From Caldithrix sp. (GTDB lineage: Bacteria; Calditrichota; Calditrichia; Calditrichales; Calditrichaceae), in contig DYOS01000010.1 in assembly GCA_020720405.1 (NCBI GenBank), forward strand, positions 1 to 44,255: 44,255 bases of DNA, given 5' to 3'. Below are positions 258-19,488 of this stretch, in pieces. Below the pieces are notes generated by a model. That model made no database searches. It saw nothing but the letters and a program-made list of their open reading frames with translations, and was not told the origin of the DNA. Position 1 is the first letter of the stretch. Every line of letters begins with the position of its first letter. A program made the translations under genes and the position numbers.

Positions 258-286
258 TTGACATAAAAAAAAATTTGCCCTATGAT
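258..286 (+). promoter_or_regulatory. Sigma70-type promoter for the M20 peptidase operon
   Basis: A perfect -35 hexamer TTGACA (258-263) is separated by exactly 17 bases, mostly A/T, from TATGAT (281-286), which matches the -10 consensus at five of six positions. Transcription would start near 293, giving a leader of about 47 nt before the ATG at 340. This is the clearest housekeeping promoter in the window, and it resembles the classical sigma70 form rather than the TTTG/TAnnTTTG form of Bacteroidota. Confidence 0.8.
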
Positions 287-339: not shown

Positions 340-1437
340 ATGACCCATGACCAAAAACTAACCGACCTCTTTCTTGATCTGGTACAGATCGACGGGCTTT
401 CCGGAAACGAAGCCGGTGTTGCCGGCTACATCAAAAATTTTACAAAAAATTTAGGTCTGACCTGCATCGAAGATGACACCGCCCAAATATCCGGCGGTAA
501 CAGCGGCAATCTGATCTGCCGGGTCGGAAACGGCGGCGATACGGTTCTGACCGCCCACATGGACACCGCCCGACCGACAAAAGACCTCAAACCTCAGGTG
601 TTGACCGATCGCATTACCTCTGATGGTAACACCATACTCGGCGCCGATAACCGGGCCGGACTGGCTGTTTTGCTGCATGTGCTGCGGGAAGCGGTCAGCG
701 TAAACGGGACAAATCTTAATTTTACCCTGGCCTTTACGGTCTGCGAAGAAACCAGTATGGCCGGCTCAAAGAATCTCAACCTGAACGGAATTAAACAGGG
801 TTTTGTTTTCGATTCTTCGGCCCGCCCGGGCAGTTTTATTTATCAGGCTTACGGCGCTCAAAGTTTTGAAGTCCGGGTCAAGGGCCGGGCTTCACATTCC
901 GGCATTGCCCCGGAACGCGGTGTTCATGCCATAAAAATTGCTGCCGACGCCCTTCACGAATTGCCGGTCGGCCGGATTGATGAAAATACGACCATGAATT
1001 TCGGCACGATCCGCGGCGGCAGTGCCGTGAATGTGGTGCCCGATCTGGTGATTATCGATGGTGAAATCCGCTCATCGGTGGCCGACCGCGTTCCGCAGCT
1101 TGGAAATCTTATTGAGCATACTTTCCGCCAAAAAGCAGAAGCGGGCGGCGGATCATCCGTTTACTCGGCCCACTGGGATTTTATGCCCTACCGGATTGAT
1201 CCTGCATCAACCGTTTTCCAAAGAATCTCGGGTGCAATTGAAAGGGCCGGTTTAAAACCCAACCCGGTTATTTCTAAAGGCGGCAGTGATGCCAATTCCT
1301 TTAATGAAAACGGCATACCGACAGTTAATATCGGTATCGGTGCCCAGAATCCCCATGCCAACGACGAGTTTATTTATCTGGACGATCTGGCCCATAGTGC
1401 GGCAATCGCCTGGGAATTAATCAGGAGCGATGTATGA
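340..1437 (+). CDS. M20-family zinc metallopeptidase (peptidase T-like)
   Basis: This is a 365-residue cytoplasmic di-zinc aminopeptidase or dipeptidase with no signal peptide. The M20 metal and catalytic residues are visible in order: H73 and D75 in TAHMDTA, bridging D103 in GADNRAG, the catalytic pair E136-E137 in CEETSMAG, D158 in FVFDSS, and H339 near the C-terminus in NPHANDEF. The dimerisation (lid) domain follows GRASHSG at about 182-188. Length and motif spacing fit the peptidase T-like branch. It lies behind a strong sigma70 promoter, and its stop overlaps the next ATG (ATGA), so it is coupled to the cyanophycinase. In that context it would hydrolyse imported dipeptides, possibly beta-Asp-Arg. 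Substrate is inference; the family assignment is firm. Confidence 0.88.
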   Translation: MTHDQKLTDLFLDLVQIDGLSGNEAGVAGYIKNFTKNLGLTCIEDDTAQISGGNSGNLICRVGNGGDTVLTAHMDTARPTKDLKPQVLTDRITSDGNTILGADNRAGLAVLLHVLREAVSVNGTNLNFTLAFTVCEETSMAGSKNLNLNGIKQGFVFDSSARPGSFIYQAYGAQSFEVRVKGRASHSGIAPERGVHAIKIAADALHELPVGRIDENTTMNFGTIRGGSAVNVVPDLVIIDGEIRSSVADRVPQLGNLIEHTFRQKAEAGGGSSVYSAHWDFMPYRIDPASTVFQRISGAIERAGLKPNPVISKGGSDANSFNENGIPTVNIGIGAQNPHANDEFIYLDDLAHSAAIAWELIRSDV

Positions 1438-2303
1438 GTATTAAACGGTTTATCTTGTCTGCTTTTGTTTTTGCCTTCTTACTCCAGAGCGGATTACCCG
1501 CCGGACCGGGAAAGGGCCATCTGATGATCTTTGGCGGTGAACAGAAATACGATTACACCATGCTGAAATTTCTGGAACTGGCCGGCGGCAAGGATGCCAA
1601 AATAGTTATTATCCCATCGGCCAGTGAGGATCCTCTCAATGAAGCTCTTTATTTGCGGCATCATCTGGAAACCCTGGGTGCAACCAATGTCAAATATGTC
1701 TTGGTCAACAATGAACCGGCCGATACATCCACCGTGCTGGCCATGATGGATAAAACGGACGGTGTTTTCTTCACCGGCGGCGACCAGGTGCGCTTAACCG
1801 GCAAACTGCTCAATACCAGATTACTGGACAAGGTGCGGGCGGTTTATGCAGCCGGCGGCGTGGTCGGAGGCACCAGTGCCGGAGCAGCGGTGATGAGCGA
1901 AATCATGATCACCGGGAATGAACTGCGCAATCCGGATACAACCGCCCCGTTTAATGCCATCCGCCTCAACAATATTGAAGTCAAACAGGGTTTCGGTTTT
2001 GTCACCAAAGCCATCATCGACCAGCATTTTGTAAAGCGCAGAAGAGAACACCGTCTGATGACCCTGGTTCTTCAGCATCCAAAGCTGCTTGGGGTTGGCA
2101 TTGATGAGCGCACCGCCATCATCGTCCGTCCGGATGATACCTTTCAGGTTTTGGGCGAACACACGGTGGTCATTTTTGATGCCCGGCAGGCGGTGAAAAT
2201 TTCTACAGACAAAAATGATAACCTAAGCGGTCAAAATCTGCGAATGCATATTTTAAAATCCGGAGATTGCTTTGATCTGAATTCAGGAACGGTATGCAAA
2301 TAA
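1434..2303 (+). CDS. Cyanophycinase (peptidase S51 family), exported
   Basis: This 289-residue protein has an N-terminal hydrophobic signal sequence (about 1-22). Cyanophycinases are serine hydrolases that cut multi-L-arginyl-poly-L-aspartate to beta-Asp-Arg dipeptides. Visible landmarks are FFTGGDQVR (112-120), the nucleophile elbow GGTSAGAAVMSE with Ser148, and IIDQHFVKRRREHRL (195-208), which carries the family His198 and the basic patch. GIDERTAI follows and is also typical. These match true cyanophycinases better than the shorter peptidase E branch. The ATG overlaps the peptidase stop, with AGGAG at 1422-1426. The gene overlaps the next by 10 bp. It is likely periplasmic, since no T9SS sorting domain is present. 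Substrate has not been shown. Confidence 0.87.
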   Translation: MSIKRFILSAFVFAFLLQSGLPAGPGKGHLMIFGGEQKYDYTMLKFLELAGGKDAKIVIIPSASEDPLNEALYLRHHLETLGATNVKYVLVNNEPADTSTVLAMMDKTDGVFFTGGDQVRLTGKLLNTRLLDKVRAVYAAGGVVGGTSAGAAVMSEIMITGNELRNPDTTAPFNAIRLNNIEVKQGFGFVTKAIIDQHFVKRRREHRLMTLVLQHPKLLGVGIDERTAIIVRPDDTFQVLGEHTVVIFDARQAVKISTDKNDNLSGQNLRMHILKSGDCFDLNSGTVCK

Positions 2304-3700
2304 GAGCACTGCGGATAAAGACGCCAAATACCTATTTTATTATTTTTTTTCTGATCGCACTGGTCGCCCTGCTGACCTGGATTCTGCCAACCGGTCAGTA
2401 CGAACGGGTGACGATTGATGGCCGGGAAATTGTTCAGCCGGGTTCATTCCAGCCCGTCCCGGCAAATCCGCAAGGCATCGGAGCCGTGCTCACGGCACCC
2501 CTGCGGGGATTTGTGGACGCCGGACTAATCATCGGCTTCGTGCTGCTGGTTGGCGGTGCATTTTCTGTTTTTCAGAAAACCCAGGCCATTGATGAAATGA
2601 TTCGCGGCATTGCCAAAGCCCATAAAAATTCAGCCCTGATCCGCTCGCTGCTGATTCCATTGTTCATGGTTATTTTTTCCCTGGCCGGGGCAGTCTTCGG
2701 GATGAGCGAAGAGGTTATCCCCTTTATCCTGATTTTCGTTCCGCTGGCCCTGACCCTGGGTTATGACAGCATCACCGGTGTAAGTATTCCCTTTATTGGT
2801 GCTGGTGTTGGCTTTGCCGGCGCATTTTTAAATCCTTTCACCATCGGCATCGCTCAGGGCCTGACCGGTCTGCCCCTGTTCTCCGGGATTGGCTACCGTT
2901 TTGTGGTCTGGCTGATCGTTACGGCAAGTGCTATTATTTTTGTTATGCGCTATGCCAACCGGATAAAAATAAATCCCGAAAAAAGTTTTATGTACGAGAA
3001 GGATCAACTGCGCCGGGCCGACCTGCATCTCGATGAGATCGATAATTTTACCCGCCTCTCCGGGACACACCTGGCCGTTCTTTTCACTTTTCTGGCCGGA
3101 CTGGTTGTGATGGTTACCGGGGTGCTTTATTTCGGCTGGTTTATCGAAGAGATGTCGGCAGTATTTCTGGCCACCGGTATCGCCGTCGGAATTGTCGGGC
3201 GGATGAAAATTGGGGAGATTACAAATGCCTTTGTCTCGGGTGCCAAAGACCTGGTCGGAACGGCACTGATTATCGGCCTGGCCCGGGGTATTCTGCTCAT
3301 CTCCCGGGAAGGTTTGATTCTGGATGCTCTGTTAAATTTTCTGGCCGAACCGATTGATGCATTACCGGCCGTTGTCTCGGCCCAGTTCATGTTCATCATC
3401 CAGACCATTATCAATTTCTTTGTCCCATCCGGGAGCGGACAGGCCGCGCTGACCATGCCGATTATAGGTCCATTGGCCGATTTAACCGGAATTTCACGGC
3501 AGACCGCCGTTCTTGCTTTTCAATTCGGAGACGGCTTCAGCAATATGATTATCCCGACTTCGGCCGTCACCATGAGTGTGCTTTCCCTGGCCGATATTCC
3601 CTGGGAAAAATGGGCCCGCTGGATATTACCCCTGGAAGTCATTTTTTTACTTTTAGGGATGCTGCTGCTGATACCACCGTTCTTAATTCACTGGCAATAA
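2294..3700 (+). CDS. YfcC/DcuC-type inner-membrane carrier
   Basis: A 468-residue polytopic membrane protein with about 11-12 hydrophobic segments. The pattern fits the YfcC branch of the DcuC/C4-dicarboxylate anaerobic carrier superfamily: an early LLTWILPTGQYER segment, a Gly/Phe-rich helix with FGMSEEVIPF, and a late NFFVPSGSGQAALTMP motif in the second substrate-binding half. Characterised relatives move dicarboxylates, and some annotated members are basic amino-acid or peptide transporters. It overlaps the cyanophycinase stop by 10 bp, so it is translated with it. In this locus it would import the released dipeptides or amino acids (inference). The last of three coupled genes; a 31-bp gap follows. 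Confidence 0.85.
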   Translation: MQIRALRIKTPNTYFIIFFLIALVALLTWILPTGQYERVTIDGREIVQPGSFQPVPANPQGIGAVLTAPLRGFVDAGLIIGFVLLVGGAFSVFQKTQAIDEMIRGIAKAHKNSALIRSLLIPLFMVIFSLAGAVFGMSEEVIPFILIFVPLALTLGYDSITGVSIPFIGAGVGFAGAFLNPFTIGIAQGLTGLPLFSGIGYRFVVWLIVTASAIIFVMRYANRIKINPEKSFMYEKDQLRRADLHLDEIDNFTRLSGTHLAVLFTFLAGLVVMVTGVLYFGWFIEEMSAVFLATGIAVGIVGRMKIGEITNAFVSGAKDLVGTALIIGLARGILLISREGLILDALLNFLAEPIDALPAVVSAQFMFIIQTIINFFVPSGSGQAALTMPIIGPLADLTGISRQTAVLAFQFGDGFSNMIIPTSAVTMSVLSLADIPWEKWARWILPLEVIFLLLGMLLLIPPFLIHWQ

Positions 3701-3731
3701 ATTAACCATCACCAAACTTTATGGAGGTCCC

Positions 3732-4874
3732 ATGAGAGTATTTTTACGGATGTTTTTGGTTGTGATTGGCATACTGGCCGTTATTAAACCGGCACAGGCC
3801 CAATCCTTCAATACGGGCGTGATCGGTGCAGCCGTCAGCGATTACGGCCGGGTGCGTATTTTTGACGGCGCCGATACCCGGCAGATTGACCGTTCCTCGC
3901 TATTGGTTGCTTCCGGTCCGACTGCCGTTTTCGATTACTGGAACGACACCGAGAATATCGATACCGCCCGCACGATTGCTTCACCGGCGTTGAGCCCCTA
4001 CGAGTTGTACACCAAAATCGATAACTCCTATAACGACCCGACCCTGCCCCCGGATGTCAGTGCCGAAATTCATATCTATGGCTGGGATGATGCCAATTTT
4101 GTAATCGTCAAATTCCACATCCTGAATTATGGCGCAACAGCTATTGATGCCCGGATCGGTCTGGAAATTATTCCCCAGCTCGACGGCAGTTACGGATTTG
4201 AAACATCCGAATATCTGGTCGATCAGGATGCCTGTGCTTTTTACTCCGGTGCCTCAACCAATGTCGGTTATAAAACTCTGTCCTCGCCATCGGCCTCATT
4301 TAAAACCATCGACTGGTATGATGGCTATAATTCCTTCGACAGTGATCTTTACAACTGGCTGACCACCAATACCTATGACACACTGGACGAAACCACTTCA
4401 TCCGACGGTATTGTTTCATTCTATTCACAGCCGGCGGTTAATCTTCCGGCCGGCGCCGACACCGATTTTTTTGTTGCTGTAGCTGTAGGTGCTGACAAAC
4501 AGACCATGCAGCTCGGACTTACTGCAGCTGTTGACAAATATGCCCAGGTTTTCGGCACACCCATCGGCGATCCGGAAACAATGGAATCCCGTAACTTCAG
4601 TCTGGCTCAGAATTATCCAAACCCATTCCCCAAAGGCACAACGGGCAATAATCTGCAAACCAGAATCCGGTTCAGCCTGCTGCAAAGCGAACAGGTCCGG
4701 CTTGTGGTTTACAACAGTCTGGGACAGGTGGTTGCCACCCTGACCAATCAGCAATTGCCGGCCGGAAACCATGAGGTTCATTTTAACGGTGCAGGTTTAC
4801 CAAATGGTGTCTATTTCTACACCTTAAGTTCAGGTTCAGCATCCACCACGAGGAAAATGCTGCTGATCCGGTAA
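3732..4874 (+). CDS. Secreted protein with T9SS type A sorting domain
   Basis: A 380-residue protein with a signal peptide ending near AQAQS (about residue 24) and GGAGG at 3723-3727 just before the ATG. The central region (30-280) is Asp- and aromatic-rich beta sequence that I do not recognise. The last 90 residues are a T9SS type A domain: NYPNPFPKG, VYNSLGQVVATL, LPNGVYFYTL and a final KMLLIR. Type A domains direct proteins through the type IX pore to the surface, where they are cleaved and anchored. It sits between the carrier and the RpiR regulator and ends at a strong terminator, so it closes the first transcription unit. A substrate-binding surface role is possible but unsupported. Confidence 0.8.
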   Translation: MRVFLRMFLVVIGILAVIKPAQAQSFNTGVIGAAVSDYGRVRIFDGADTRQIDRSSLLVASGPTAVFDYWNDTENIDTARTIASPALSPYELYTKIDNSYNDPTLPPDVSAEIHIYGWDDANFVIVKFHILNYGATAIDARIGLEIIPQLDGSYGFETSEYLVDQDACAFYSGASTNVGYKTLSSPSASFKTIDWYDGYNSFDSDLYNWLTTNTYDTLDETTSSDGIVSFYSQPAVNLPAGADTDFFVAVAVGADKQTMQLGLTAAVDKYAQVFGTPIGDPETMESRNFSLAQNYPNPFPKGTTGNNLQTRIRFSLLQSEQVRLVVYNSLGQVVATLTNQQLPAGNHEVHFNGAGLPNGVYFYTLSSGSASTTRKMLLIR

Positions 4875-4880
4875 CGTTCT

Positions 4881-4915
4881 AAAAAACGGGTTGCCCGGCC
4901 GGCAGCCCGTTTTTT
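4881..4915 (+). terminator. Intrinsic terminator
   Basis: A 15-bp stem (AAAAAACGGGTTGCC pairing with GGCAGCCCGTTTTTT, one G-T wobble) encloses a short CGGCC loop and ends in a T run. It lies 7 bp after the stop of the T9SS protein and ends the 340-4874 transcription unit. Confidence 0.88.
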
Positions 4916-4938
4916 CTGAACCCTGATTCTACAGAAAT

Positions 4939-4966
4939 ACCTGTCCGCCATTTACAGGAAACAGGT
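4939..4966 (+). promoter_or_regulatory. Inverted repeat upstream of the rpiR-family gene (possible operator)
   Basis: ACCTGT (4939-4944) and ACAGGT (4961-4966) are perfect 6-bp arms separated by 16 bases, 18 bp before the ATG of the RpiR-family gene, with a further TACAGG inside. RpiR regulators bind inverted repeats and often control their own gene, so this is a candidate autoregulatory site. Short arms make chance occurrence possible. Confidence 0.3.
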
Positions 4967-4983
4967 GCAAAAGCGGATTATAA

Positions 4984-5838
4984 ATGCGTTACCAGACCAT
5001 CAAGGAAAAGATCAGGCAGAATTACGGCAATCTGCCCGGGAACCAGAAGAAAATTGCAGATTTCGTCATCGATCATTTTGATCAGATTCCTTTCCGCAAC
5101 GTTCAGCAAATTTCTCAATCCACCGGTACCAGTGTGGCCACCATCGTCCGCTTTGCCCAGCGCATCGGTTTTAGCGGATTCAGTGAACTGCGTGAAGAAA
5201 TCGCCAGTACGCTGCAGGGGCATTTGCAGGGCAGCGCCTTATTCCCTCTGATCGATCAGGAAGAACTGGCCCGCAATACGCTGACCCTGGTTGCCAATCA
5301 GGAAATCACCAATATCAACCAGACCCTGGCCCAGATCGAAATGGCCAATTTTCACCTTGTGGTGGATGAAATCTTAAAGGCGAAACGGGTTTACACCATG
5401 GGTTTGGGTATTTCGAACCTGCTGTGCCAGATATTGGCCTATCAGCTCAATCAGGTTGGCATTGATGCCCATCCTTTCCGCCATGATTACAGCTATTTTT
5501 CGGAGCAGCTTCTGCCGTTGAACAAAAACGACCTGATTGTGGCTTTTTCTTTTCCGCCATACTCGGTCGAGACCATCGAAACCGCACGGATAGCCCGCGA
5601 GCGGGGCATAAAACTGATCGCCCTGACCAACCGGGACAGTTCACCGGTAACACCCTACTGTCTGGTCAACCTTTGTGTGCGCAGCGAAAACATGCTTTTT
5701 ACCAATTCGTTCTCGGCTATTTCCGTTCTGATCAATGCTATTTCCACAGAATGTGCGGTAAAAAATAAAAGCCGGGCGGAAGTAACCGCAACCGAAATTG
5801 ACCGGATGATGTTTGCTCAAAAAAATATTATGTCTTAG
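4984..5838 (+). CDS. MurR/RpiR-family transcriptional regulator
   Basis: A 284-residue cytoplasmic regulator. Residues 1-77 form an HTH_6-type winged domain, with VQQISQSTGTSVATIVRFAQ as the helix-turn-helix and GFSGFSELREEI as its usual end. Residues about 105-255 form a SIS domain that in this family senses phosphorylated sugars or sugar acids (TMGLGISNLLCQ, DLIVAFSFPPYSVETIE, IALTNRDSSPV). It stands alone after a strong terminator and directly before the TonB receptor, so it is the likely local regulator of the uptake genes. An RpiR protein in a peptide-polymer locus is unusual, because characterised members answer mostly to sugars. Ligand unknown. Confidence 0.88.
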   Translation: MRYQTIKEKIRQNYGNLPGNQKKIADFVIDHFDQIPFRNVQQISQSTGTSVATIVRFAQRIGFSGFSELREEIASTLQGHLQGSALFPLIDQEELARNTLTLVANQEITNINQTLAQIEMANFHLVVDEILKAKRVYTMGLGISNLLCQILAYQLNQVGIDAHPFRHDYSYFSEQLLPLNKNDLIVAFSFPPYSVETIETARIARERGIKLIALTNRDSSPVTPYCLVNLCVRSENMLFTNSFSAISVLINAISTECAVKNKSRAEVTATEIDRMMFAQKNIMS

Positions 5839-5880
5839 CATGAACAGCCGGTTTTCTGCCGGGCTGCCGAGGTGAGTATT

Positions 5881-8346
5881 ATGAAACCAGTGCTACTCTT
5901 TTTACTGCTGTCCGTCCTTCATGTCTGGGCTGGAGTAACCGGCAAATTAAGCGGAAGGGTGACCGATGCCCGGAGCGGTGCGCCCCTGGCCGGCGCCAAT
6001 ATCGAAATCAGCGGAACTGGCATCGGCGCATCCGCTGATGCTGAAGGTTATTTCGTTATCCTGAACGTCGTCCCCGGGAAAATTGAAGTGGTAATCAGCT
6101 ATATCGGATATGAAACCCAGCGTCATCAGGATGTTCTGATCAATGCCGATCTGACCACAATTATTCAGGCCGCCTTAAGCGAAGCCCATCTGACCATGAA
6201 TGAAAGCATTGTGGTTATGGCCGAGCGGCCCCTGATTCAGCGTGACCTGACCGGCTCCATGTCCGTTGTCCGGCGGGAGGATATTGAATCCCTGCCGGTG
6301 GCTAATCTGCAGGATATTCTGGCACTGCAGGCCGGTGTGGTCAGTAACGGCAGCCGCTTCAATGTGCGCGGCGGAAGAGCCAATGAAGTGGCTTTTTTAA
6401 TTGACGGTATGTATGTCAGCGATCCGCTGATGGGTGGTCTGGCCACCAATATTAACAACGATGCCATTCAGGAACTGACCCTGCTCAGTGGAACCTTTAA
6501 TGCCGAATATGGCAATGCCCTGAGCGGTGTGGTCAATATCGTCACCCGGGATGGTGCTGAAAAACTGGAAGCACAGCTTGAAACCCGGAGCAGTATTTTC
6601 GGCATTTCGCGCTACGCCAACCTGGAAGAACTGCGGATCAACGGCAATATCAGCGGTCCTTTTATTTCCGATAAAACCCGTTTTTTCATCTCCGCCGAAT
6701 ATAACACCGCCGGCAGTTACCTGCCTTTCGGCTATGAGCGTAATCTGACCTTCTTCAGCAAACTCAGTTTCCGCCAGATTCCCGGTGTAAAAATTACCTT
6801 ATCCAACCGCGGCAGCCGTTCGGCCTGGCAGAATTACAGCCACGATTATAAATACATCCCCGAACAATATCTGCGCAGCCGCAGTGATGACTGGCAGAGT
6901 GTGCTCATGCTGACCCATACCCTGAGCAATAATTTATTTTATGATTTCCGGCTGTCTTATTTTAACCGCGGCAGTTATTCCGGTGTGGATAAGGACACCT
7001 CGGAATACCTGACCTCGTCCCAATGGGAATATTTAGAAGCATACGGGAACGGTGTTGAATTCTACTCGCTGGCCAACCCCCTGCAATTAACACAAAGCCG
7101 TACGGCCACAGCCGATGCCAAATTCGACCTGGTCTGGCAGCCTAATGAGCGCAACGAAATCAAATTCGGCCTGCATTTTAAAAAGCATTATCTCAACCTG
7201 TTCAGCATTTATGACCCAAAACGGGATAACCCGTATGTTGACGATTATAAAGTTGATCCATATGAAGCTGCCGTTTATTTACAGGACAAACTCGAATTCC
7301 CGTCGCTGGTGCTCAATCTTGGCCTGCGCTACGATTATGCCAATGCCAATGTCCGTTTCCGCGAAAGTCCGCTCGAAGCCGGATCGGCGGTTGAAGTAAA
7401 ACCGCGCACACAATTCAGTCCCCGTCTCGGTATTGCCCATCCCATCTCGGAAAAAACAAAACTGCATTTTTCCTACGGCCATTTTTTCCAGAACCCGGAT
7501 TACCAGTACTTATATGAAAACAAACAATACGACATCGGGGTGCGCGAGCCTATTTTTGGTCAGCCCAGTCTTGACGCCGAACGGACTATTGCCTATGAAG
7601 TCGGACTTTCCCATCAGTTTTCCGGCAATAACAGTCTTAATCTGACCGCCTATTATAAAGATGTAACCGGGCTGATCGGCACCCACTATTTTGAATTCCG
7701 TGATGCCTATACCAATCAATATACAGCCTACACCCTGTACGTGAACGAGGACTATGCCAATATCAAAGGATTTGAGTTAAGCCTGAACCTGCGCCCAAAC
7801 CGCCATTTCAGCGGCGGTCTGACTTATACTTTTTCCATAGCCAGGGGCAGTGCCTCTTCTGAAACGGAACAATATCCCGGCACCCAGGAATCGACCCGGC
7901 TGTACTATCTCGACTTTGACAAAACCCATCTGTTTAATGCCACAGCAGCCTATAATCTGAGCCAGAATGAAGGGATAGAAATTTTCGGGTTACCTGTTTT
8001 CGAAAATACAGATTTCAACCTGATTTTCAGTGCCGCCTCCGGCTCTCCCTACACCCCCTCCGGCCGGGATATCGGTTTTGTCGAGAAAAATTCCCTGCGT
8101 CAGCCAGCCATTTATTCTGCCGATCTGGAAATTGGCAAAAGCTGGAAAATCGGACAAACCCAGAAACTGCGCCTGTTTGCAGAGGTCCGCAATCTGACCA
8201 ACCAGCGAAATATTTTATATGTTTACCGTGATACGGGTGACCCGGATTATACGATCGTTGGTGATCACTCCACAGCTTATATGCGCGACCCTTCCAATTA
8301 CGGCGCACCGCGCTCGGTAAGGCTTGGTTTTGGTTGGAGTCTGTAA
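5881..8346 (+). CDS. TonB-dependent outer-membrane receptor with carboxypeptidase-like N-terminal domain
   Basis: A receptor of about 821 residues. I chose the ATG at 5881 because GAGGTG (5869-5874) sits six bases before it; the upstream in-frame GTG at 5872 lies inside that Shine-Dalgarno. A signal peptide (1-17) is followed by a CarboxypepD_reg-like domain (about 20-105; KLSGRVTDARSGAPLAGANI), a plug domain (about 115-220; LQDILALQAGVV, FNVRGGRANEVAFLIDGM, EYGNALSGVVNIVT) and a 22-strand barrel to the C-terminus. The layout is SusC-like. It moves a ligand into the periplasm using TonB energy. It precedes a large secreted protein and a PorV-like barrel, and is flanked by peptidases, which suggests a peptide-type ligand (inference). 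Confidence 0.9.
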   Translation: MKPVLLFLLLSVLHVWAGVTGKLSGRVTDARSGAPLAGANIEISGTGIGASADAEGYFVILNVVPGKIEVVISYIGYETQRHQDVLINADLTTIIQAALSEAHLTMNESIVVMAERPLIQRDLTGSMSVVRREDIESLPVANLQDILALQAGVVSNGSRFNVRGGRANEVAFLIDGMYVSDPLMGGLATNINNDAIQELTLLSGTFNAEYGNALSGVVNIVTRDGAEKLEAQLETRSSIFGISRYANLEELRINGNISGPFISDKTRFFISAEYNTAGSYLPFGYERNLTFFSKLSFRQIPGVKITLSNRGSRSAWQNYSHDYKYIPEQYLRSRSDDWQSVLMLTHTLSNNLFYDFRLSYFNRGSYSGVDKDTSEYLTSSQWEYLEAYGNGVEFYSLANPLQLTQSRTATADAKFDLVWQPNERNEIKFGLHFKKHYLNLFSIYDPKRDNPYVDDYKVDPYEAAVYLQDKLEFPSLVLNLGLRYDYANANVRFRESPLEAGSAVEVKPRTQFSPRLGIAHPISEKTKLHFSYGHFFQNPDYQYLYENKQYDIGVREPIFGQPSLDAERTIAYEVGLSHQFSGNNSLNLTAYYKDVTGLIGTHYFEFRDAYTNQYTAYTLYVNEDYANIKGFELSLNLRPNRHFSGGLTYTFSIARGSASSETEQYPGTQESTRLYYLDFDKTHLFNATAAYNLSQNEGIEIFGLPVFENTDFNLIFSAASGSPYTPSGRDIGFVEKNSLRQPAIYSADLEIGKSWKIGQTQKLRLFAEVRNLTNQRNILYVYRDTGDPDYTIVGDHSTAYMRDPSNYGAPRSVRLGFGWSL

Positions 8347-8448
8347 AAGCGAGTGAAAATCAATGACTGACGATGATTCAAAAAACCAATCCTGCACCGG
8401 CGGTGCAAATCCGCCGGGCGGGATATTTCTGTATAAAACGAGGCTGAT

Positions 8449-11238
8449 ATGAAATTAAAATTGCTGGCCATGCTGATGCTTTATTCTGCCAATCCCGTTT
8501 TCGCCCAGGACAAAGACCGGGACAGTGATTTTCTATACCTGGGAAAAACATCAGCCATTGAGGACCGGGCGGCCGGAACCCATAATGCCGGAAATATCGG
8601 ACTTTTTTTTGAGAACAGGGGTAAACTTTACCCACGGCGGTTAAGCCAGGGGCCCTCCGGGGAATTTCCGATCAATAGCGGAAAACATTATATCTACCGC
8701 ATCAATCCCATGGTTGGCGTGCCCGGAAATGTTATCCAGGGCCGCTACACGGATAATGAAGAATGGGAAGCGGTCGGTGGTTACCACAACAGCGATTATA
8801 CAAAAATAGCCTTTAGCGATAATAACCGCACCTGGCCTTCCGGCGAATGGCCGGTTAAGGATGCCGCCGGCAACCCGGTAATTTTATCCGACCAGGATTC
8901 GTACTGCGTTTATGACGATGCCAACAACAGCGTTACAAAACTGGGTCTGCAGGTGGCTCAGACCGGTTACACCTATGGTGTAAAATTCGCTCAGAACATT
9001 CTCTTTTATAAATACGAGCTGACCAATAATGGTGAAAATGACCTGGACAGTCTGTACTTCAACCTGTACTGTGATATCGATATTGGCAACATCAGCGGTG
9101 GTGCCCCGGAGTATGCCGATGACAAAGTCGGGTTCAGCAAAGAACGGAATCTGCTCTATTTTTATGATAGCGGCTATTCTTCCGAGTGGCCTGGTAACAA
9201 AACCGGGCAGTTTGGTATTGCCCTGCTGCGCACCCCGCAGATCAACGGCTCGGAATTGGGTGCCACCGATATGCACTACAACCGGGAGGAGCATGATATC
9301 GACCGCGATGATATTCAATATGCCATCCTTTCCGGCGACACCAGTTTTCTCGGTATTCCCGAGTTGTTTGGCAATTTCTTTCACACCGGGTCGGGCCACG
9401 ACCTGCACTTCGATGATCTTTCCACCATCCCTTCGGCCGGTCTGGGCATTTTAGCCAATATCAGTTCCGGACCCTATGTCTTAAACCGCGGTGACACGCT
9501 GACTTTTTACACCGCCCTGATCGGGGCCGACAATAATGCCGAACTGCTTGAAACCCACGATATGGCTCTGAAAATTCTGAACCTGAATTTCAATATCAGT
9601 AAACCTCCGGCCACACCCGCCCTTTCCGCCGTTGCCGGCGATGGCAGGGTAACTCTTTTCTGGGATGATGCAGCCGAAGCATCGGTCGATAATTTTAGCG
9701 GTGAACAGGATTTTGAAGGTTATCGTCTTTACCGGAGTACAGATCAGGGTGTCCATTGGGATCAATATGACCGCAATGCGGATCCCAGCGTCGGGGTGGA
9801 TCCGGTGCCAATCGCCGATTACGATGTAAGCAACGAAATTGGTCTTGATTCCGGTCTGCGCTACAGCTTTATCGATTCCAATGTGACCAACGGATTCAAT
9901 TACTGGTACACGGTAACCTCCTATGACCGCGGCGACACTACGCTGGAAAGCCTGGAATCCGCCCGCGGCAATAACCTTGACGCAAAGAACCTGGCCTCGG
10001 TTATACCCTCCGCCTCAGCCATCGACCGGACGCCGGTCAGCAGCGGAGAAGTGGTGCATTCGGGCAGCGGCACCTCCAATTACCTGCTGAATGTAAAACC
10101 GCCTGACCTGGATTCGCTTGCCAGCCGAAGTTACGAGGTCAGCTTCAGCTATAATTACCGCAAAGACCATGGCCGGTTAAAAACCAGGGTGAGCATCGAA
10201 ATAACCGACTCAACCAAAACGCTGGCTGAAAATTACCAGATCAAATTCATTTCTCCCGAAAATCTTTACCTGATCAATCTGTCCACCGATCTGGAAATCG
10301 GCACCAATCCCAAGCGCTATCGTTCCGGCGCCAAATATACCCTGAATCCTGGTCTAAAGGTTGGTTTAACCGATCCGGATCCCAATGCACCGCCCGAAGA
10401 TCTGCCCAGGGCCGGGGATGTTATTTCGATCAATTTTGCCACCACTACCATCCGCAGCGACGGTGACACGGTTGTTGCCAGCCGGGCTTTTGATCTGAAT
10501 CAGCCCATGACCACCAGCGACGGCATCACCTATGCGCTGCAGGCGCCGGAGATGATCGGGCCGGTTATCCGGGTCAGCGGCAGCGATGCTTTTAACCTGG
10601 AGTTTTCGGTCAGTGATGAAAGCGCCATTATGGATGAGACTTATTTTCTGGCAGTTACTCCCGGCGGTTTCGAAGGCAGCCGGGGATTTATCGGGCTGCT
10701 GGTTCAGACTGCCGCCCTGGATACCGTAGCCCACCCGGATAGTCTTTTTAACAATGACACTTTTGACTTCAACGGGCTGACGGTCGGCGTCACTTTCCCG
10801 GATAATCAGCCGCCCGGCACCGGCAACATCTTTTCTGTGGAGACGGTTGTGCCGCGTAAACCTAATATTAAAGACCGCTATACTTTTAACATTCAGGGTG
10901 CCGCCGTCTCAAAACAGCAGCTTTCCCGGAAGATGGAAAATATAAAAGTAGTGCCCAATCCCTACCTCGTTTCATCGCTGTATGAAGAAGAATTCGGTGA
11001 GCTGCGCTATGAACCGGTGCGCCAGATCCGTTTTATAAACCTGCCCTCAAAATGCACCATCCACATTTTTTCCGTGGCCGGACAGCGCATAAAGAAGATT
11101 GAGCATGAGGCCAACAACGGGAGTGAAGCCTGGGATTTGCGTTCCGACGGCGGACGGGAAATCGCCCCGGGAGTTTATGTATTTGTAGTTAAATCGGCCG
11201 GCGGGGAATTCCTTGGCCGCTTTGCCGTGATAAAATAA
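8449..11238 (+). CDS. Large secreted Fn3-containing protein with divergent T9SS-type C-terminus
   Basis: A 929-residue protein with a signal peptide ending near PVFAQ (about residue 20) and an AGG just before the start. The N-terminal 380 residues are rich in Asp, Tyr and Gly and carry no motif I know. About 385-510 is a fibronectin type III-like domain (PATPALSAVAGDGRVTLFWDD, then EGYRLYRSTDQG). The last 85 residues resemble a T9SS C-terminal domain but in divergent form: VVPNPYLVSS, IHIFSVAGQRIKKI, GREIAPGVYVFVVKS and a final GRFAVIK. It follows the TonB receptor and precedes the PorV-like gene, and may be the receptor's surface partner, analogous in position to SusD. It is not homologous to SusD as far as I can see. 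Confidence 0.78.
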   Translation: MKLKLLAMLMLYSANPVFAQDKDRDSDFLYLGKTSAIEDRAAGTHNAGNIGLFFENRGKLYPRRLSQGPSGEFPINSGKHYIYRINPMVGVPGNVIQGRYTDNEEWEAVGGYHNSDYTKIAFSDNNRTWPSGEWPVKDAAGNPVILSDQDSYCVYDDANNSVTKLGLQVAQTGYTYGVKFAQNILFYKYELTNNGENDLDSLYFNLYCDIDIGNISGGAPEYADDKVGFSKERNLLYFYDSGYSSEWPGNKTGQFGIALLRTPQINGSELGATDMHYNREEHDIDRDDIQYAILSGDTSFLGIPELFGNFFHTGSGHDLHFDDLSTIPSAGLGILANISSGPYVLNRGDTLTFYTALIGADNNAELLETHDMALKILNLNFNISKPPATPALSAVAGDGRVTLFWDDAAEASVDNFSGEQDFEGYRLYRSTDQGVHWDQYDRNADPSVGVDPVPIADYDVSNEIGLDSGLRYSFIDSNVTNGFNYWYTVTSYDRGDTTLESLESARGNNLDAKNLASVIPSASAIDRTPVSSGEVVHSGSGTSNYLLNVKPPDLDSLASRSYEVSFSYNYRKDHGRLKTRVSIEITDSTKTLAENYQIKFISPENLYLINLSTDLEIGTNPKRYRSGAKYTLNPGLKVGLTDPDPNAPPEDLPRAGDVISINFATTTIRSDGDTVVASRAFDLNQPMTTSDGITYALQAPEMIGPVIRVSGSDAFNLEFSVSDESAIMDETYFLAVTPGGFEGSRGFIGLLVQTAALDTVAHPDSLFNNDTFDFNGLTVGVTFPDNQPPGTGNIFSVETVVPRKPNIKDRYTFNIQGAAVSKQQLSRKMENIKVVPNPYLVSSLYEEEFGELRYEPVRQIRFINLPSKCTIHIFSVAGQRIKKIEHEANNGSEAWDLRSDGGREIAPGVYVFVVKSAGGEFLGRFAVIK

Positions 11239-11410
11239 AATGGTTTGATGATACGCTGCCAGGTTTTGATTCTGAAAGCGGATCACTGCTAAATTTTTGC
11301 CGGCCAATGCAGTCGGTGGATTATGGCAAACAAAACCGGACATCGGGAAAAGCTGCTCCCGAAGGAACTATGGGAACTATGAAAAAAATGTGCCCTGCAC
11401 AGGAGTAATT

Positions 11411-12406
11411 ATGTCAGCCTGTCTGAAAAGATGGTTATTTTTTCTGCTGCTGCCGGCCATCGGCCTGGCCCAGAATCCAAATCTTGGTACAGCCGGAGCC
11501 CAGTTTCTGAAGATCCCGGTCGGCGCCGCTTCGGTCGGGCTGGGCGGGTCCTGCATTGGTCTGACCAGTGACGCTTCGGCCGTATTCTGGAATCCGGTCG
11601 GTATTTCTGCGGTGAAAAATAACTCTGTACATTTTTCGCATCTGCGCTGGTTCGGTATGTTTGATCTGAACAGTGTGGCCCTGGTGCATCATTTTGAGGG
11701 TATTGGTCACGTCGGTCTTGGTTTGGTCGTCTTCAGCACCGATAAAATGGAGATCACCACCGAAACCCAGCCCAACGGCAGCGGCCAGTTTTTTGATGCC
11801 CAGGACATGGCTTTCAGCCTGAGCTACAGCCGGTTTTTAACTTCAAATTTCAGCGCCGGTGTCAGCCTGAAATACATTTATCAGCGCATCTGGGATGAAA
11901 CAGCCGGCGGCGTGGCCTTTGACATCGGTACAAAATTCTTCACCGGCTATCATAATATTATCCTGGCTATGACCATGTCTAATTTTGGTCCAGACCTTCA
12001 GCTTGACGGTCCAAACCTGGCCATCAAACACGACGGTGACCCGTTTCTGAATAACCGGCTGACCCCGGCCCGTTACACCACCGATCCCTATGCTTTACCG
12101 CTTAATTTCCAGTTCGGGGTCACGGCGGATTTGTACCAGTCGCCGTTTTTCACTCTGCGCGCCGAGCTGGATGCGGTTCACCCCAACGACAATCTCGAAC
12201 ATTTGCAAATGGGCGGCGAGGCGTTGTTTTGGGGTCAACTGGTTCTGCGGGCCGGTTACAAATTCCGTGACGACGATGAAAAACTGAACCTTGGCGCCGG
12301 GATCAAAAGCTATCTGGGCACCTATCTGATCAAACTGGATTATGCCTATTCAATGTATGAAATACTGCCCGATGTCCATTTTATTTCGGCCGGCTTTGAG
12401 TTCTGA
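11411..12406 (+). CDS. PorV/PorQ-family outer-membrane beta-barrel protein
   Basis: A 331-residue protein. AGGAG at 11401-11405 fixes the ATG at 11411; an upstream in-frame start at 11297 has no such signal and would bury the signal peptide. The signal peptide ends near AIGLAQN. The mature N-terminus, LGTAGAQFLKIPVGAASVGLGG followed by SDASAVFWNPVGISAVK, is the PorV/PorQ (FadL-like 14-strand barrel) signature. PorV shuttles T9SS cargo from the pore to the attachment complex; many FCB genomes carry extra copies next to specific cargo. Here it immediately follows a likely T9SS cargo and the TonB receptor, so it may be a dedicated shuttle for this locus (inference). Confidence 0.82.
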   Translation: MSACLKRWLFFLLLPAIGLAQNPNLGTAGAQFLKIPVGAASVGLGGSCIGLTSDASAVFWNPVGISAVKNNSVHFSHLRWFGMFDLNSVALVHHFEGIGHVGLGLVVFSTDKMEITTETQPNGSGQFFDAQDMAFSLSYSRFLTSNFSAGVSLKYIYQRIWDETAGGVAFDIGTKFFTGYHNIILAMTMSNFGPDLQLDGPNLAIKHDGDPFLNNRLTPARYTTDPYALPLNFQFGVTADLYQSPFFTLRAELDAVHPNDNLEHLQMGGEALFWGQLVLRAGYKFRDDDEKLNLGAGIKSYLGTYLIKLDYAYSMYEILPDVHFISAGFEF

Positions 12407-12407
12407 T

Positions 12408-13967
12408 ATGCCTAAAACAATGCCGCCCGCACCTTACCGAAGTAAGACCAGAATTTCGAATCATCCATCATTATTGCTCAGCCTGCTGTTCCTATCGTTA
12501 TTTCTTTTACTCAACCGGGCGGAGGCTCAAATGACGGCACTGACCTGTCCGGAACCGGCCCTGATCAGCAGGCCGGTTACCTATCCGGAAATGGAAGCAT
12601 TTTTAGCCGGGCTGAATCAACCCGGTTTTATCACCATACAACCTGAAGGGCAGAGTCACCAGAACCGGAATATTTATTCAGTCCGCTTATACCGGGGCAA
12701 AGACCAGCCGCGCTACCGTCTGTTGCTTTATGCCCAGCAGCATGGCAATGAGCCGGCCGGGAAAGATGCCCTGCTTTTTCTTCTTCGTAACTTTTCTGAA
12801 AATCCTACTCTGCTGCCGGCGGATACGGAGCTTTGGCTGATGCCCATGATCAATCCCGACGGCGCCGCAGCGGATACCCGGCGCAACGCGGCCGGTGCGG
12901 ATCTGAACCGGGATCATCTGAGCCTCGACCAGCCGGAAACCCGGGCTTTGTATCAGCTGGTGCGCCGGGTTCGGCCGCATATTGCCATCGATTGCCACGA
13001 GTTTGTCCGCGACAGCGAAGACTATGCCTCCATGGGCTGGCTGGAGTGGCCGCAGATTATGATGGACACCGCCAATAACCCGTTTTTCCCGGCCGATATT
13101 TACAAAATGGGATTGGAGTGGTGTCAGACCATTGCCCAACCGCTGGACGCAAAAGGAATAAATTATACACGCTATTATGTCGGCGGCGTCCCGCCGGATG
13201 AGGAGCAGCGCTTCAGCGCCCCGGATCTGGATGATGCCCGCAACGGAATTGGTGCGTTTGGCGGTTTGTCGTTTATCATCGAATCGGGTGTGCGGCGTTC
13301 CCGGCCCGATCCAAATGCCGATCTTGGATTGCGGGTACAAGCCTATCTGGCCATTTTTGATGAGTTTTTTTTTAATAAAACGCTGATAAAAAAAAGCCTG
13401 AAAATGCTGGAAAAAACGGGTGACACCCGGACCCTGCCCGATTTTGTCCCGACCAATTATTTTTGGGCCAACCGTGATTTTAAAATTTCAGAAGTAAAGG
13501 TGATCGAAACGCAGAACAACCGGGAGAGGTCCATTGCTACAGCTAATTTCATGACCGATCTGGTTTGCAAAAACAGTGTCACCCGACCGGCAGCCTATCT
13601 GGTCGATGCCCAAAATGCCGGACCGTTTAAAAACCTGCTCGACCGGCATCAGATTGATTATCAGATCATCAAATCAGACACTTCTATTGAAATCGAATCT
13701 GCCCGGCTGATCCGTTTTGAAGATTATACCGATTCGGTTTACAACCGCTATGCCGACCGGGTTCTGGTTTCCCGTCTGCCAAATTCAGAAAAAACCTTCC
13801 GGCCTGGTTCATTGCTTATTCCGGCCGACGGCTCCCAGGCGCGGCGGGTCATCCTGCTGCTTGAGCCAAACCAGATGTACGGTTTGTATCAATATCCCCA
13901 ATACCGCCAACTGATCGACACCAGCGGTGTTCTGCCGGTTCACCGTCTGCTGCAAAAACAAGAATGA
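12408..13967 (+). CDS. Exported M14-family zinc carboxypeptidase
   Basis: The ATG at 12408 lies one base after the TGA of the previous gene, which favours it over an in-frame ATG 66 bp upstream inside that gene. This gives 519 residues with a long signal-anchor segment (about 20-40, ending AEAQ). M14 zinc ligands are H112 and E115 in QQHGNEPAG and H197 in AIDCHEF. Substrate-binding residues appear as NPDGAAADTRRNAAGADLNRD (149-169), and FIIESGVRRSR carries the catalytic Glu. The C-terminal 200 residues are an extra domain I do not recognise. The enzyme would trim C-terminal residues from peptides, or amides from a backbone, outside the inner membrane. It overlaps the next gene by 4 bp and is clearly part of this peptidase set. 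Confidence 0.85.
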   Translation: MPKTMPPAPYRSKTRISNHPSLLLSLLFLSLFLLLNRAEAQMTALTCPEPALISRPVTYPEMEAFLAGLNQPGFITIQPEGQSHQNRNIYSVRLYRGKDQPRYRLLLYAQQHGNEPAGKDALLFLLRNFSENPTLLPADTELWLMPMINPDGAAADTRRNAAGADLNRDHLSLDQPETRALYQLVRRVRPHIAIDCHEFVRDSEDYASMGWLEWPQIMMDTANNPFFPADIYKMGLEWCQTIAQPLDAKGINYTRYYVGGVPPDEEQRFSAPDLDDARNGIGAFGGLSFIIESGVRRSRPDPNADLGLRVQAYLAIFDEFFFNKTLIKKSLKMLEKTGDTRTLPDFVPTNYFWANRDFKISEVKVIETQNNRERSIATANFMTDLVCKNSVTRPAAYLVDAQNAGPFKNLLDRHQIDYQIIKSDTSIEIESARLIRFEDYTDSVYNRYADRVLVSRLPNSEKTFRPGSLLIPADGSQARRVILLLEPNQMYGLYQYPQYRQLIDTSGVLPVHRLLQKQE

Positions 13968-15643
13968 ACCAGCCGTTTTATTATACCCGGTTGTTTCAGC
14001 TCTGGCTGGTGCTGCTGCTTTACCTTCCCGTTCCGGAAAAACTACCGGCCCAGGGTTCGGTACTGCTGGTCGGTGGAGGTTCCGAAGATGCCAATACCTG
14101 GTCCGACCGGCCTTTTAGCTGGATGGTCAGCCAGGCCGATTCCGGGAAAATCATCAATATCGATGTCGATGCCGCCACACCCTGGTATGCTTCCTATTTC
14201 CGCTGGCTGGGCGCCGATCCGGCCAGTCATCATCTGCAGATTGCCAGCCGTACGGCAGCCAACGATTCCGCCGTTTACCGCGAGCTGATCAGCGCCAGCG
14301 GCATTTTTATTGAAGGCGGTGATCAATGGGATTATATCGAAACCTGGAAAAATACTTTGGTCAGTCAGGCTCTGCAGGAGATCTTTGACCGGGGCGGCGT
14401 AATCGGCGGAACCAGCGCCGGGCTGGCTGTTTTGGGTGAAGTGGTGTTTGATGCCCGCTTCGGAACGGCGGATCCCAAAAATGTTGCTTACGATCCATAC
14501 AATTCACGGGTCAGTTTTACAGATGATTTTCTTATGGTCTTACCCGGCATCCTGACCGATTCTCATTTTCAGGCCCGGGGGCGTTTGGGCCGGCTGATTC
14601 CCATGCTGGCCCGGCGTATTGTGGATTATAATCAGCCCAATCTGACCGCCATCGGCGTCGATGAGGAAATGGCTTTAGGCATAGATCAGAAAGGTCTGGC
14701 CACGGCTTTTGGCAATTCATCCGTTACCATTTTGTACGCCGGAGCCGGGAGCCAGATCAATTGCCGGCCGGGAATCCCCGTTTCATTTACCTCCATCGGC
14801 TGTGATATTCTGCTGCATGAAGCTGTTTATGATTTGAACACCAAAACTTTAATCGACTCCGGTATTTATTTAAAAGCTGCCCGGCCGGCACAGATCCAGC
14901 CCATACCAGCCGAAACGATTCTGCTTGAGGGCAGTATGGAGGAGACGGCCGATAAGGGTGAAATCCGCATCAGCGGGTTAACCGGCAATCCGGAAAACTG
15001 GTGGCAGAATGGTTTGCAGGCCGTTCCCGGAACCAGCCAGTTACCAGGTGCGGTACTGATTCCAAAACTATGGCATGAGGCTGACTTTTACCCCAACCGG
15101 ATCAGTGGCGGTTTACTCGGCGCCGCTTTGCACCCGGGATTTTTTGCCATATTCCTTGATGATTCAAGCCGGGTCACGGTCACTGAAGATGGGAAACTTA
15201 GTACGGAGGGCATTTGCTACCTACTGGAAAGCCCGGATGCAAGGTTTACCGGTAAAAACCAATTTGGCATCCCCGGAATGATCGGCGGGAAAATACAGGT
15301 ACTGGCTGACGGTGACCGTTTTGATCTGCTTTCCGGTCAGGCTGCTTTGGCCATACCACAGAACGTTCAACCAAAACCAGCCGGATTCAGACTGAACCAC
15401 TGCGCCCCAAATCCCTTTAATAACAGCTTTGTCATCGAATTTGAATTACCCGAACCCGGTCAGATTGAGATTGCAGTTTTTAACAGTATTGGTCAGAAAA
15501 TACAACGGGTGATGCCATCTTATTTCCAGGCCGGTTCAAACCGTTTATTCTATCCGGCGGATAATCTTTCTTCCGGCGTCTATTTTCTGCGGCTGAGCTT
15601 TAAGGAGCAGAGCAGGATGTTCAAACTTGTCCATTTGAAGTAA
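13964..15643 (+). CDS. Surface cyanophycinase-like protein fused to a T9SS sorting domain
   Basis: A 559-residue protein with a signal peptide (about 1-30, ending LPAQG). Residues 32-290 are a second S51/cyanophycinase domain: IFIEGGDQWDY (114-124), nucleophile motif GGTSAGLAVLGE with Ser151, and TDSHFQARGRLGRL (198-211) with His201. The usual Gln of DQHF is Ser here, and RGRLGRL is kept. A middle region (300-460) of unknown beta structure leads to a T9SS type A domain (about 470-559: NHCAPNPFNNSF, AVFNSIGQKIQRV, SSGVYFLRLSF). So a cyanophycinase fold is displayed outside the cell. It starts within the carboxypeptidase stop (ATGA). Whether it cuts cyanophycin or a related isopeptide is unknown. 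Confidence 0.82.
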   Translation: MNQPFYYTRLFQLWLVLLLYLPVPEKLPAQGSVLLVGGGSEDANTWSDRPFSWMVSQADSGKIINIDVDAATPWYASYFRWLGADPASHHLQIASRTAANDSAVYRELISASGIFIEGGDQWDYIETWKNTLVSQALQEIFDRGGVIGGTSAGLAVLGEVVFDARFGTADPKNVAYDPYNSRVSFTDDFLMVLPGILTDSHFQARGRLGRLIPMLARRIVDYNQPNLTAIGVDEEMALGIDQKGLATAFGNSSVTILYAGAGSQINCRPGIPVSFTSIGCDILLHEAVYDLNTKTLIDSGIYLKAARPAQIQPIPAETILLEGSMEETADKGEIRISGLTGNPENWWQNGLQAVPGTSQLPGAVLIPKLWHEADFYPNRISGGLLGAALHPGFFAIFLDDSSRVTVTEDGKLSTEGICYLLESPDARFTGKNQFGIPGMIGGKIQVLADGDRFDLLSGQAALAIPQNVQPKPAGFRLNHCAPNPFNNSFVIEFELPEPGQIEIAVFNSIGQKIQRVMPSYFQAGSNRLFYPADNLSSGVYFLRLSFKEQSRMFKLVHLK

Positions 15644-17927: not shown

Positions 17928-18695
17928 ATGACTAAAGCAATAAAATCAAAATGGCTGGTCTTTCCGAAGCCGCAACCGGCGGCCCGCCTGCGCTTATTTT
18001 GCCTGCCCTTTGCCGGCGGCAGCAGCAATGCCTTCCGCAACTGGACAAAATATTTACCATCCACTGTGGAATTATGTTCTATTGAACTGCCTGGCCGCGG
18101 TTCACGTCTTAGCGAAGCGCTGCGCCACTCATTACCCGAATTATTGCCGGAAATATCCGCTGCCCTTGAACCGCATCTCGATCTGCCTTTCATTTTTTTT
18201 GGCCACAGCATGGGCACGCTACTGGCCTTTGAACTCAACTATTACCTTCGTCAGCAGCTTTCCAAATCCGCCAGCCACATCTTCCTTTCCGGGCGCGGCG
18301 CTCCCCACCTGGCTGACCCCGAACCGCCGATCCACCAGCTCGGACACGATGATTTTATATCCAAAATTAAAGAGTACAACGGTACCCCGAAACAAATTCT
18401 CGAACACCGCGAACTGATGGAACTAATGGTACCGATTCTAAGAGCTGACTTCGAAATCTGTGAAACCTACCGCTTTGAAGCGGATGAACGGGAGCCATTT
18501 GACCAACCCCTGACTATATTTGGGGGATTAAAAGACAGCAGCACGCCTCGCCCGGTACTCGAAGCATGGAGCCGTTATACCACCAGCACATTCCAGGTAC
18601 GCATGTTTCCCGGAGACCATTTTTACCTGCTCGATTCGGAGATGCTCCTGATCCAGACCATGCTTCGGGACATCGGCAACCATTTTAATTTTTAA
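17928..18695 (+). CDS. Type II thioesterase (GrsT/RifR-like)
   Basis: A 255-residue alpha/beta hydrolase. External thioesterases clear misloaded or mis-acylated carrier proteins on NRPS and PKS lines. Visible are RLRLFCLPFAGGSSNAFRNW (20-39), the LPGRGSR segment (54-60) that marks this family, the nucleophile elbow FGHSMG with Ser94, a candidate acid Asp203 after IFGG, and GDHFYLL with the catalytic His231. It follows MbtH by 153 bp and precedes the phosphopantetheinyl transferase by 6 bp. An antisense frame (17771-18238) across its start is a shadow. Confidence 0.9.
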   Translation: MTKAIKSKWLVFPKPQPAARLRLFCLPFAGGSSNAFRNWTKYLPSTVELCSIELPGRGSRLSEALRHSLPELLPEISAALEPHLDLPFIFFGHSMGTLLAFELNYYLRQQLSKSASHIFLSGRGAPHLADPEPPIHQLGHDDFISKIKEYNGTPKQILEHRELMELMVPILRADFEICETYRFEADEREPFDQPLTIFGGLKDSSTPRPVLEAWSRYTTSTFQVRMFPGDHFYLLDSEMLLIQTMLRDIGNHFNF

Positions 18696-18701
18696 AAATA
18701 C

Positions 18702-19415: not shown

Positions 19416-19488
19416 GCACCGCTCCGGCCGCAGGAAGGCAGCCTGGCAAAGACCTGATTCCGTCATCATTTTTTTAATCGGGAGAAGC

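Follow-up and report, generated by a model that had tools for sequence, protein, structure and literature searches.

The forward strand of contig DYOS01000010.1 of Caldithrix sp. (Calditrichota; assembly GCA_020720405.1) is filled from position 340 to 15643 by ten long open reading frames (ORFs), all on the plus strand and including two peptidase family S51 genes, which raises the question of whether these genes serve together in the use of cyanophycin, a polymer in which other microbes store nitrogen. The window analyzed here, i.e., the whole stretch of 44,255 nucleotides, is the start of this contig (G000:C4 in our numbering) in a genome of 3.3 Mb that is 97% complete. An initial annotation, made from the letters alone, had proposed a system resembling a polysaccharide utilization locus (PUL) for scavenging cyanophycin or a similar polymer, and had named nine proteins. 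Assignment of the ten ORF products with Pfam and NCBIfam profiles bore out ten plus-strand genes of the named families; the tenth, missing from that list, encodes a 380-aa secreted protein with a type IX secretion system (T9SS) tail (3732-4874). The scavenging proposal is supported in outline by the substrate pocket of the S51 proteins, the conserved gene neighborhood, the lack of cyanophycin synthetase (CphA), and the IadA, IaaA and SusD genes found in equivalent loci. On this sequence evidence, we consider it likely that these genes form a cyanophycin utilization locus in a scavenger that does not make the polymer itself.

The two S51 proteins and the search for cyanophycin synthetase

The two S51 genes encode a predicted cyanophycinase at 1434-2303 (S51a) and a predicted T9SS-tailed cyanophycinase at 13964-15643 (S51b). 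Residues critical in CphB are Gln101, Asp172, Gln173, Arg178, Arg180 and Arg183, and CphE keeps the same residues apart from Gln173, which is Thr there (PMC3235067). All six pocket residues and the Ser132/His174/Glu201 triad of CphB are identical in S51a, which also passes the TIGR02069 equivalog cut-off (204.4 vs. 126.6 bits). In S51b, the triad is present and Q101, D172, R178, R180 and R183 are kept, with Ser in place of Q173. The arginine pocket, on which the initial annotation had let its proposal depend, was thus found by residue alignment in both proteins, each of which carries a GGDQ and a D-x-H-F-x-x-R-x-R-x-x-R motif. This pocket is not general to S51 proteins, since the third S51 protein of the genome, which is PepE-like (L003:1312-1917), has GGDP and is without the arginine motif. 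Alignment of 16 S51a proteins showed Gln173 in 15, and among 21 aligned S51b proteins Ser or Thr occupied position 173 in all 20 that reach it. Both S51a and S51b look catalytically competent, and S51b is best termed cyanophycinase-like with a pocket that appears CphE-like.

In line with the cyanophycinase fold that had been proposed for S51b, its predicted model (predicted local distance difference test score, pLDDT, 85.5) lay nearest to solved cyanophycinases in a Foldseek search (7uqw, 7uqv and 3en0; E about 1e-18; TM-score by target 0.79-0.85; 21-23% identity), and structures of PepE type followed at E 6.5e-9 or weaker. The C-terminal sorting domain of S51b scored 35.4 bits against a TIGR04183 cut-off of 23, a T9SS tail was present in 12 of 14 S51b homologues, and SprA, the component searched for as a sign of the T9SS machinery, has a homologue in the genome (839 bits over the reading frame). 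The S51a orthologues of four genomes (G037, G039, G013 and G045) have lipobox-like N-termini, which suggest membrane anchoring there. The longer S51b proteins of about 680-725 aa (L047:15333-17366, L127, L129, L130 and L132) may contain a second, degenerate S51 domain, and the cyanophycinase model gives two matches in G031.

The CphA model gave only partial, sub-cut-off matches in this genome, which are most likely Mur-ligase and ATP-grasp proteins. At E 1e-100, CphA was found in none of the 40 phylum genomes searched (this one and 39 relatives), while a control genome was positive. Scavenging is favored over use of an own store because of this absence from the genome and its 39 relatives. Among 19 further genome records bearing S51b, some of which are the same assemblies as phylum members, 15 were without CphA, two had the complete protein, and in two it was partial. 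Plasmid searches returned ordinary cphA/asparaginase/cyanophycinase operons in Sphingobium.

Layout of the locus, its recurrence and its uptake genes

The ten genes (Table 1) have an operon-like character, since several ORFs overlap by a few (4-10) bases, namely M20/S51a at 1434-1437, S51a/YfcC at 2294-2303 and M14/S51b at 13964-13967. Direct reading of the sequence placed the likely starts of the PorV and M14 genes near 11411 and 12408 rather than at the 11297 and 12342 given by the ORF tool. The total number of promoter-like sites in the region was not above that in shuffled sequence. The best NCBIfam match of the carrier was YfcC, 'putative basic amino acid antiporter', at 405 bits, under the cut-off of 500.

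Table 1. Genes and promoter-like site of the locus (positions in the window)
Feature	Position	Strand	Basis
Promoter-like TTGACA-17-TATGAT	258..286	+	11 of 12 consensus positions, best of the region; 5' of first gene
M20-family PepT-like cytoplasmic metallopeptidase	340..1437	+	PF01546/PF07687; TIGR01883 242.8 bits, cut-off 274 not reached
S51a, exported CphB-like cyanophycinase	1434..2303	+	TIGR02069 204.4 bits, cut-off 126.6; signal peptide
YfcC/DcuC-family inner-membrane carrier	2294..3700	+	PF03606 1e-100
380-aa secreted protein, T9SS type A tail	3732..4874	+	TIGR04183
RpiR-family regulator, HTH_6 + SIS	4984..5838	+	PF01418/PF01380
TonB-dependent receptor, SusC-like, CarboxypepD_reg domain	5872..8346	+	PF00593/PF07715/PF13715
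929-aa large secreted protein, weak T9SS tail	8449..11238	+	TIGR04183 19.7 bits, cut-off 23 not reached
PorV/PorQ-family outer-membrane barrel	11411..12406	+	NF033709 188 bits, cut-off 90
Exported M14 metallocarboxypeptidase	12408..13967	+	PF00246 1.7e-13; weak AstE/AspA match
S51b, predicted surface cyanophycinase with T9SS sorting tail	13964..15643	+	TIGR02069 85.5 bits; TIGR04183 35.4 bits

The conserved neighborhood that the initial annotation had expected in relatives was found in 11 genomes across several phyla, in which one contig unites M20 and S51a with the TonB receptor and with YfcC, RpiR or both, the large secreted protein and PorV being the further members of the conserved cluster. 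These genomes belong to the phylum of the host (G000, i.e., this genome, G029, G031 and G039), KSB1 (G045 and G055), Neomarinimicrobiota (G049) and Ignavibacteria (G052, G053 and G054), and one is labelled Bacteroidetes (G056). S51b is in the same contig cluster in six (G000, G031, G045, G049, G052 and G056); in G054 it is on the cluster's contig but far off, and in G029 and G058 contig ends fall between pieces of the locus. The ten-gene combination is no chance grouping, because its order and gene content are found again in other phyla. An enolase-superfamily (MR_MLE) protein, possibly a dipeptide epimerase, is encoded near a cyanophycinase on an Ignavibacteriales contig (L127:12696-13811) and on a Gemmatirosa plasmid (L189:8929-10896), on which a TonB receptor gene comes after that of the cyanophycinase.

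No SusD was found by Pfam among the ten proteins. The 929-aa protein, which is encoded between the TonB receptor and PorV on every contig long enough to show it, had no Pfam match and gave a poor predicted model (pLDDT 48.5). The triad of TonB receptor, large secreted protein and PorV is present in eight copies in this genome, that of the cyanophycin locus included; the seven further copies (L104-L110), mostly beside T9SS-tailed proteins, are on contigs C184, C127, C39, C49, C143, C95 and C42, the last with one extra gene between. The SusD-less triad looks like a general nutrient-uptake module of the lineage, of which the cyanophycin locus holds one version. At the C127 triad, the first gene seems by its sequence to encode a LacI-type regulator, and the seven further copies together resemble a SusD-less PUL family. 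No title or abstract among the results of a literature search described the triad, which is weak evidence of novelty. In a tree of the receptors, those of cyanophycinase loci grouped in a single clade, separate from the paralogues within the genome (support 91/96; 94% of bootstrap trees), and the tree of the secreted partner showed the same two-subclade split with 84/73 for one clade. The PorV tree showed two subclades and did not recover a single clade of these loci, so that joint descent of the triad is only partly shown.

The 380-aa protein, a possible surface binding protein, has orthologues in G029, G031, G039, G052, G053, G054 and G058. In KSB1, Neomarinimicrobiota and Calditrichota, NhaC-type Na+/H+ antiporter-family carriers are encoded next to S51b or M20 (L079, L119, L120, L124, L131 and L188), and an SNF symporter occurs in G038 and G039; these appear to be alternative carriers of the locus.

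Elsewhere in the window, ORFs at 17928-20577 read by eye as thioesterase II-like, Sfp-type phosphopantetheinyl transferase-like and sulfotransferase-like, and no nonribosomal peptide synthetase or polyketide synthase gene was recognized in the examined part of the window. The minus-strand genes at 31087-35294, among them a CofH/MqnC-type radical SAM protein and an amidohydrolase, are perhaps those of the futalosine menaquinone pathway.

The M20 and M14 peptidases and the proposed last hydrolysis step

Neither IadA nor IaaA was found among the ten genes with Pfam and NCBIfam; IadA is absent from this genome, and a cytoplasmic IaaA homologue is encoded on another contig. The M20 protein is PepT-like, falls outside both the IadA and IaaA families, and has H73, D75, D103, E136, E137, D158 and H339 in place. 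Its orthologue is the direct neighbor of S51a in 11 genomes (G000, G029, G031, G045, G049, G052, G053, G054, G055, G056 and G058) and lies inside the cluster in G037 and G039. Only two of 20 genomes searched, G043 and G057, have IadA, and both are without a close M20 orthologue; conversely, G049 and G058 have M20 beside S51a and, with the thresholds applied, lack both IadA and IaaA. Although too few genomes were sampled for a firm statistic, this pattern and the gene neighborhood suggest that the M20 protein does the job of IadA and is likely a beta-Asp-Arg dipeptidase. Cluster-specific M20 residues were set aside as a clue to function, since alignment of the paralogues is poor near the first metal ligand.

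The cluster is linked to beta-aspartyl dipeptides by related loci into which SusD, IadA or IaaA has been substituted. A Bacteroidetes contig (L133) carries S51a, a FecR-like regulator, IadA (TIGR01975, 501 bits; cut-off 331) and S51b; a KSB1 contig (L117) carries a SusD-like protein, S51a, YfcC and S51b, with the IadA of the same genome on another short contig; and in G029 an IaaA-type protein is encoded downstream of S51b. The M14 protein, which could release arginine or process residual peptides, has a weak match to the murein tripeptide amidase MpaA, and homologues are encoded near S51b in G013, G049, G052 and G054. The S51b-adjacent M14 gene of G013 is broken into two ORFs (L044:13944-14933), which may reflect decay or an assembly error. 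Another contig, L187 (G043:C61), carries IadA, then a 243-aa protein, an M14 peptidase and a gamma-glutamyltranspeptidase, a second link of M14 to isoaspartyl dipeptide genes. CphZ is an AstE/AspA-type (M14-clan) enzyme.

Many Bacteroidota and Firmicutes bearing CphA1 lack a recognizable IadA or IaaA (PMC10206079), and the M20 protein is a concrete candidate for the last step where these are unrecognized. A broader proposal, which we put forward tentatively and hold to be slightly less probable than its opposite, is that M20 is the first member of one more family of cyanophycin-dipeptide hydrolases, unrelated to the others and in the place of IadA, and that the triad of TonB receptor, large T9SS-tailed protein and PorV is a SusD-independent counterpart of SusCD, reused by several phyla of the Fibrobacteres-Chlorobi-Bacteroidetes group for many substrates including cyanophycin.

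Described systems, alternative readings and a proposed route

The initial annotation knew of no described TonB/T9SS cyanophycin system, a claim that did not stand, since published work already describes a locus for cyanophycin utilization, a cyanophycinase with a Por tail and a cyanophycinase with a TonB receptor as its neighbor (PMC10206079, PMC6243061, PMC3400609). The scavenging concept is thus known, and the architecture of the present locus was not found in the literature consulted; what appears new is M20 as likely beta-Asp-Arg dipeptidase and the SusD-less triad. A cyanophycin utilization locus was reported for a cyanobacteria-scavenging clade of Bacteroidetes (Ben Hania 2017, doi 10.1111/1462-2920.13639, as cited in PMC10206079). 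As excerpted, the locus of Salinivirga cyanobacteriivorans shares the scavenging logic and unites cyanophycinase genes, a dipeptidase and a transporter (PMC10206079, PMC6243061), with a Por secretion domain on one cyanophycinase and an untailed S51 besides (PMC6243061), but has iadA (PMC10206079) where ours has M20. The uptake part also differs from that of Salinivirga, being composed here of the triad without SusD, YfcC and RpiR. The abstract of Ben Hania et al. reportedly calls the transporter PUL-like. Compared with a locus of that type, ours has a cyanophycinase and transporter without cphA1 and contains neither iadA nor iaaA.

In Balneolaeota strain Omega, a cyanobacterial satellite, the S51 domain of CYPRO_0608 likewise ends in a T9SS (Por) tail, and another S51 protein is untailed; according to the authors, the genomic setting of CYPRO_0608 is not the same as in Salinivirga, and the excerpted text reports no TonB/PorV locus (PMC6243061). 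For Citromicrobium sp. JLT1363, where a TonB receptor adjoins a cyanophycinase, TonB uptake of cyanophycin products was proposed from gene context; this is an alphaproteobacterium, and T9SS is not mentioned in the excerpt (PMC3400609). The extracellular CphE of Pseudomonas resembles S51b in having a hydroxyl residue at pocket position 173 (Thr there, Ser here) but has a Sec signal and no described T9SS tail, unlike S51b with its extra middle domain and tail (PMC3235067). With SusCD-type PULs the locus shares a SusC-like receptor with a carboxypeptidase-regulatory domain, a predicted surface depolymerase and a regulator, but it has the 929-aa protein and PorV in the place of SusD.

Several observations weigh against assigning the locus to cyanophycin scavenging. 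S51b stays under the TIGR02069 equivalog cut-off (85.5 vs. 126.6 bits), pocket or triad residues depart in the S51a proteins of G037, G039 and G045 and in the Glu201 column of several S51b proteins, four S51b-bearing genomes carry a full or partial CphA, and some S51b genes stand alone outside such loci. In those four genomes S51b is not beside a TonB receptor, and two of the contigs are very short. The RpiR regulator is kept in the locus of relatives; RpiR regulators usually sense sugar phosphates, and the inducer is unexplained. The divergence of S51b from CphB, seen in the identity of its structural matches, would also fit the same architecture serving another beta-linked or isopeptide polymer or general beta-aspartyl peptides (e.g., isoaspartyl-damaged protein or Lys-containing cyanophycin variants), but both enzymes retain Gln101 and the three arginines of the pocket, reported as critical for cyanophycinase activity, and we regard this alternative as unlikely.

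General peptide or muropeptide scavenging, in which the S51 proteins would be PepE-like dipeptidases beside M20 and M14, could draw on the PepT-like M20 protein and the weak MpaA match of M14, and the RpiR family includes MurR-type regulators. It is made highly improbable by the GGDQ and arginine motifs of both S51 proteins, against the motif-less GGDP protein of the same genome, and by the rank of PepE far below cyanophycinases in the fold search; S51 proteins as simple dipeptidases were rejected on the pocket motif. Where both occur, cyanophycinases usually cluster with cphA1 (PMC10206079), which would speak for mobilization of the cell's own cyanophycin store, but both S51 proteins are exported and no CphA was found in this 97%-complete genome or its 39 relatives, so that this use was rejected on CphA absence and retains hardly any probability. 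That two or more unrelated operons merely lie side by side is suggested by the gaps at 4874-4984 and 8346-8449, by G039, where the M20/S51a/YfcC/RpiR genes diverge from the TonB genes, and by the distant S51b of G054; conservation of the same combination in 11 genomes of several phyla leaves this with next to no credibility.

For cyanophycin scavenging, then, a route can be proposed from the gene content and order, the catalytic and pocket residues, the export signals as read directly from the sequence, the sorting signals, the SprA homologue and the absence of CphA, in which we infer the substrate, transport direction, binding roles, M20 reaction and RpiR ligand. S51b, displayed by the T9SS, would attack at the surface cyanophycin freed from other cells, and the polymer or fragments of it would be held by the T9SS-tailed 380-aa and 929-aa proteins. 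Oligomers would be imported by the TonB receptor together with the 929-aa protein and PorV, acting instead of a SusC/SusD pair, and within the periplasm or envelope exported S51a would trim them to beta-Asp-Arg. This dipeptide would pass through the YfcC-type carrier into the cytoplasm, where M20 would split it to Asp and Arg, perhaps helped by the cytoplasmic IaaA homologue, and RpiR would control the operon. If this is true, several phyla that are mostly uncultured would have cyanophycin scavenging as an inherited trait and, through it, a link to nitrogen that cyanobacteria or other producers release, and an uptake module without SusD could be studied by experiment.

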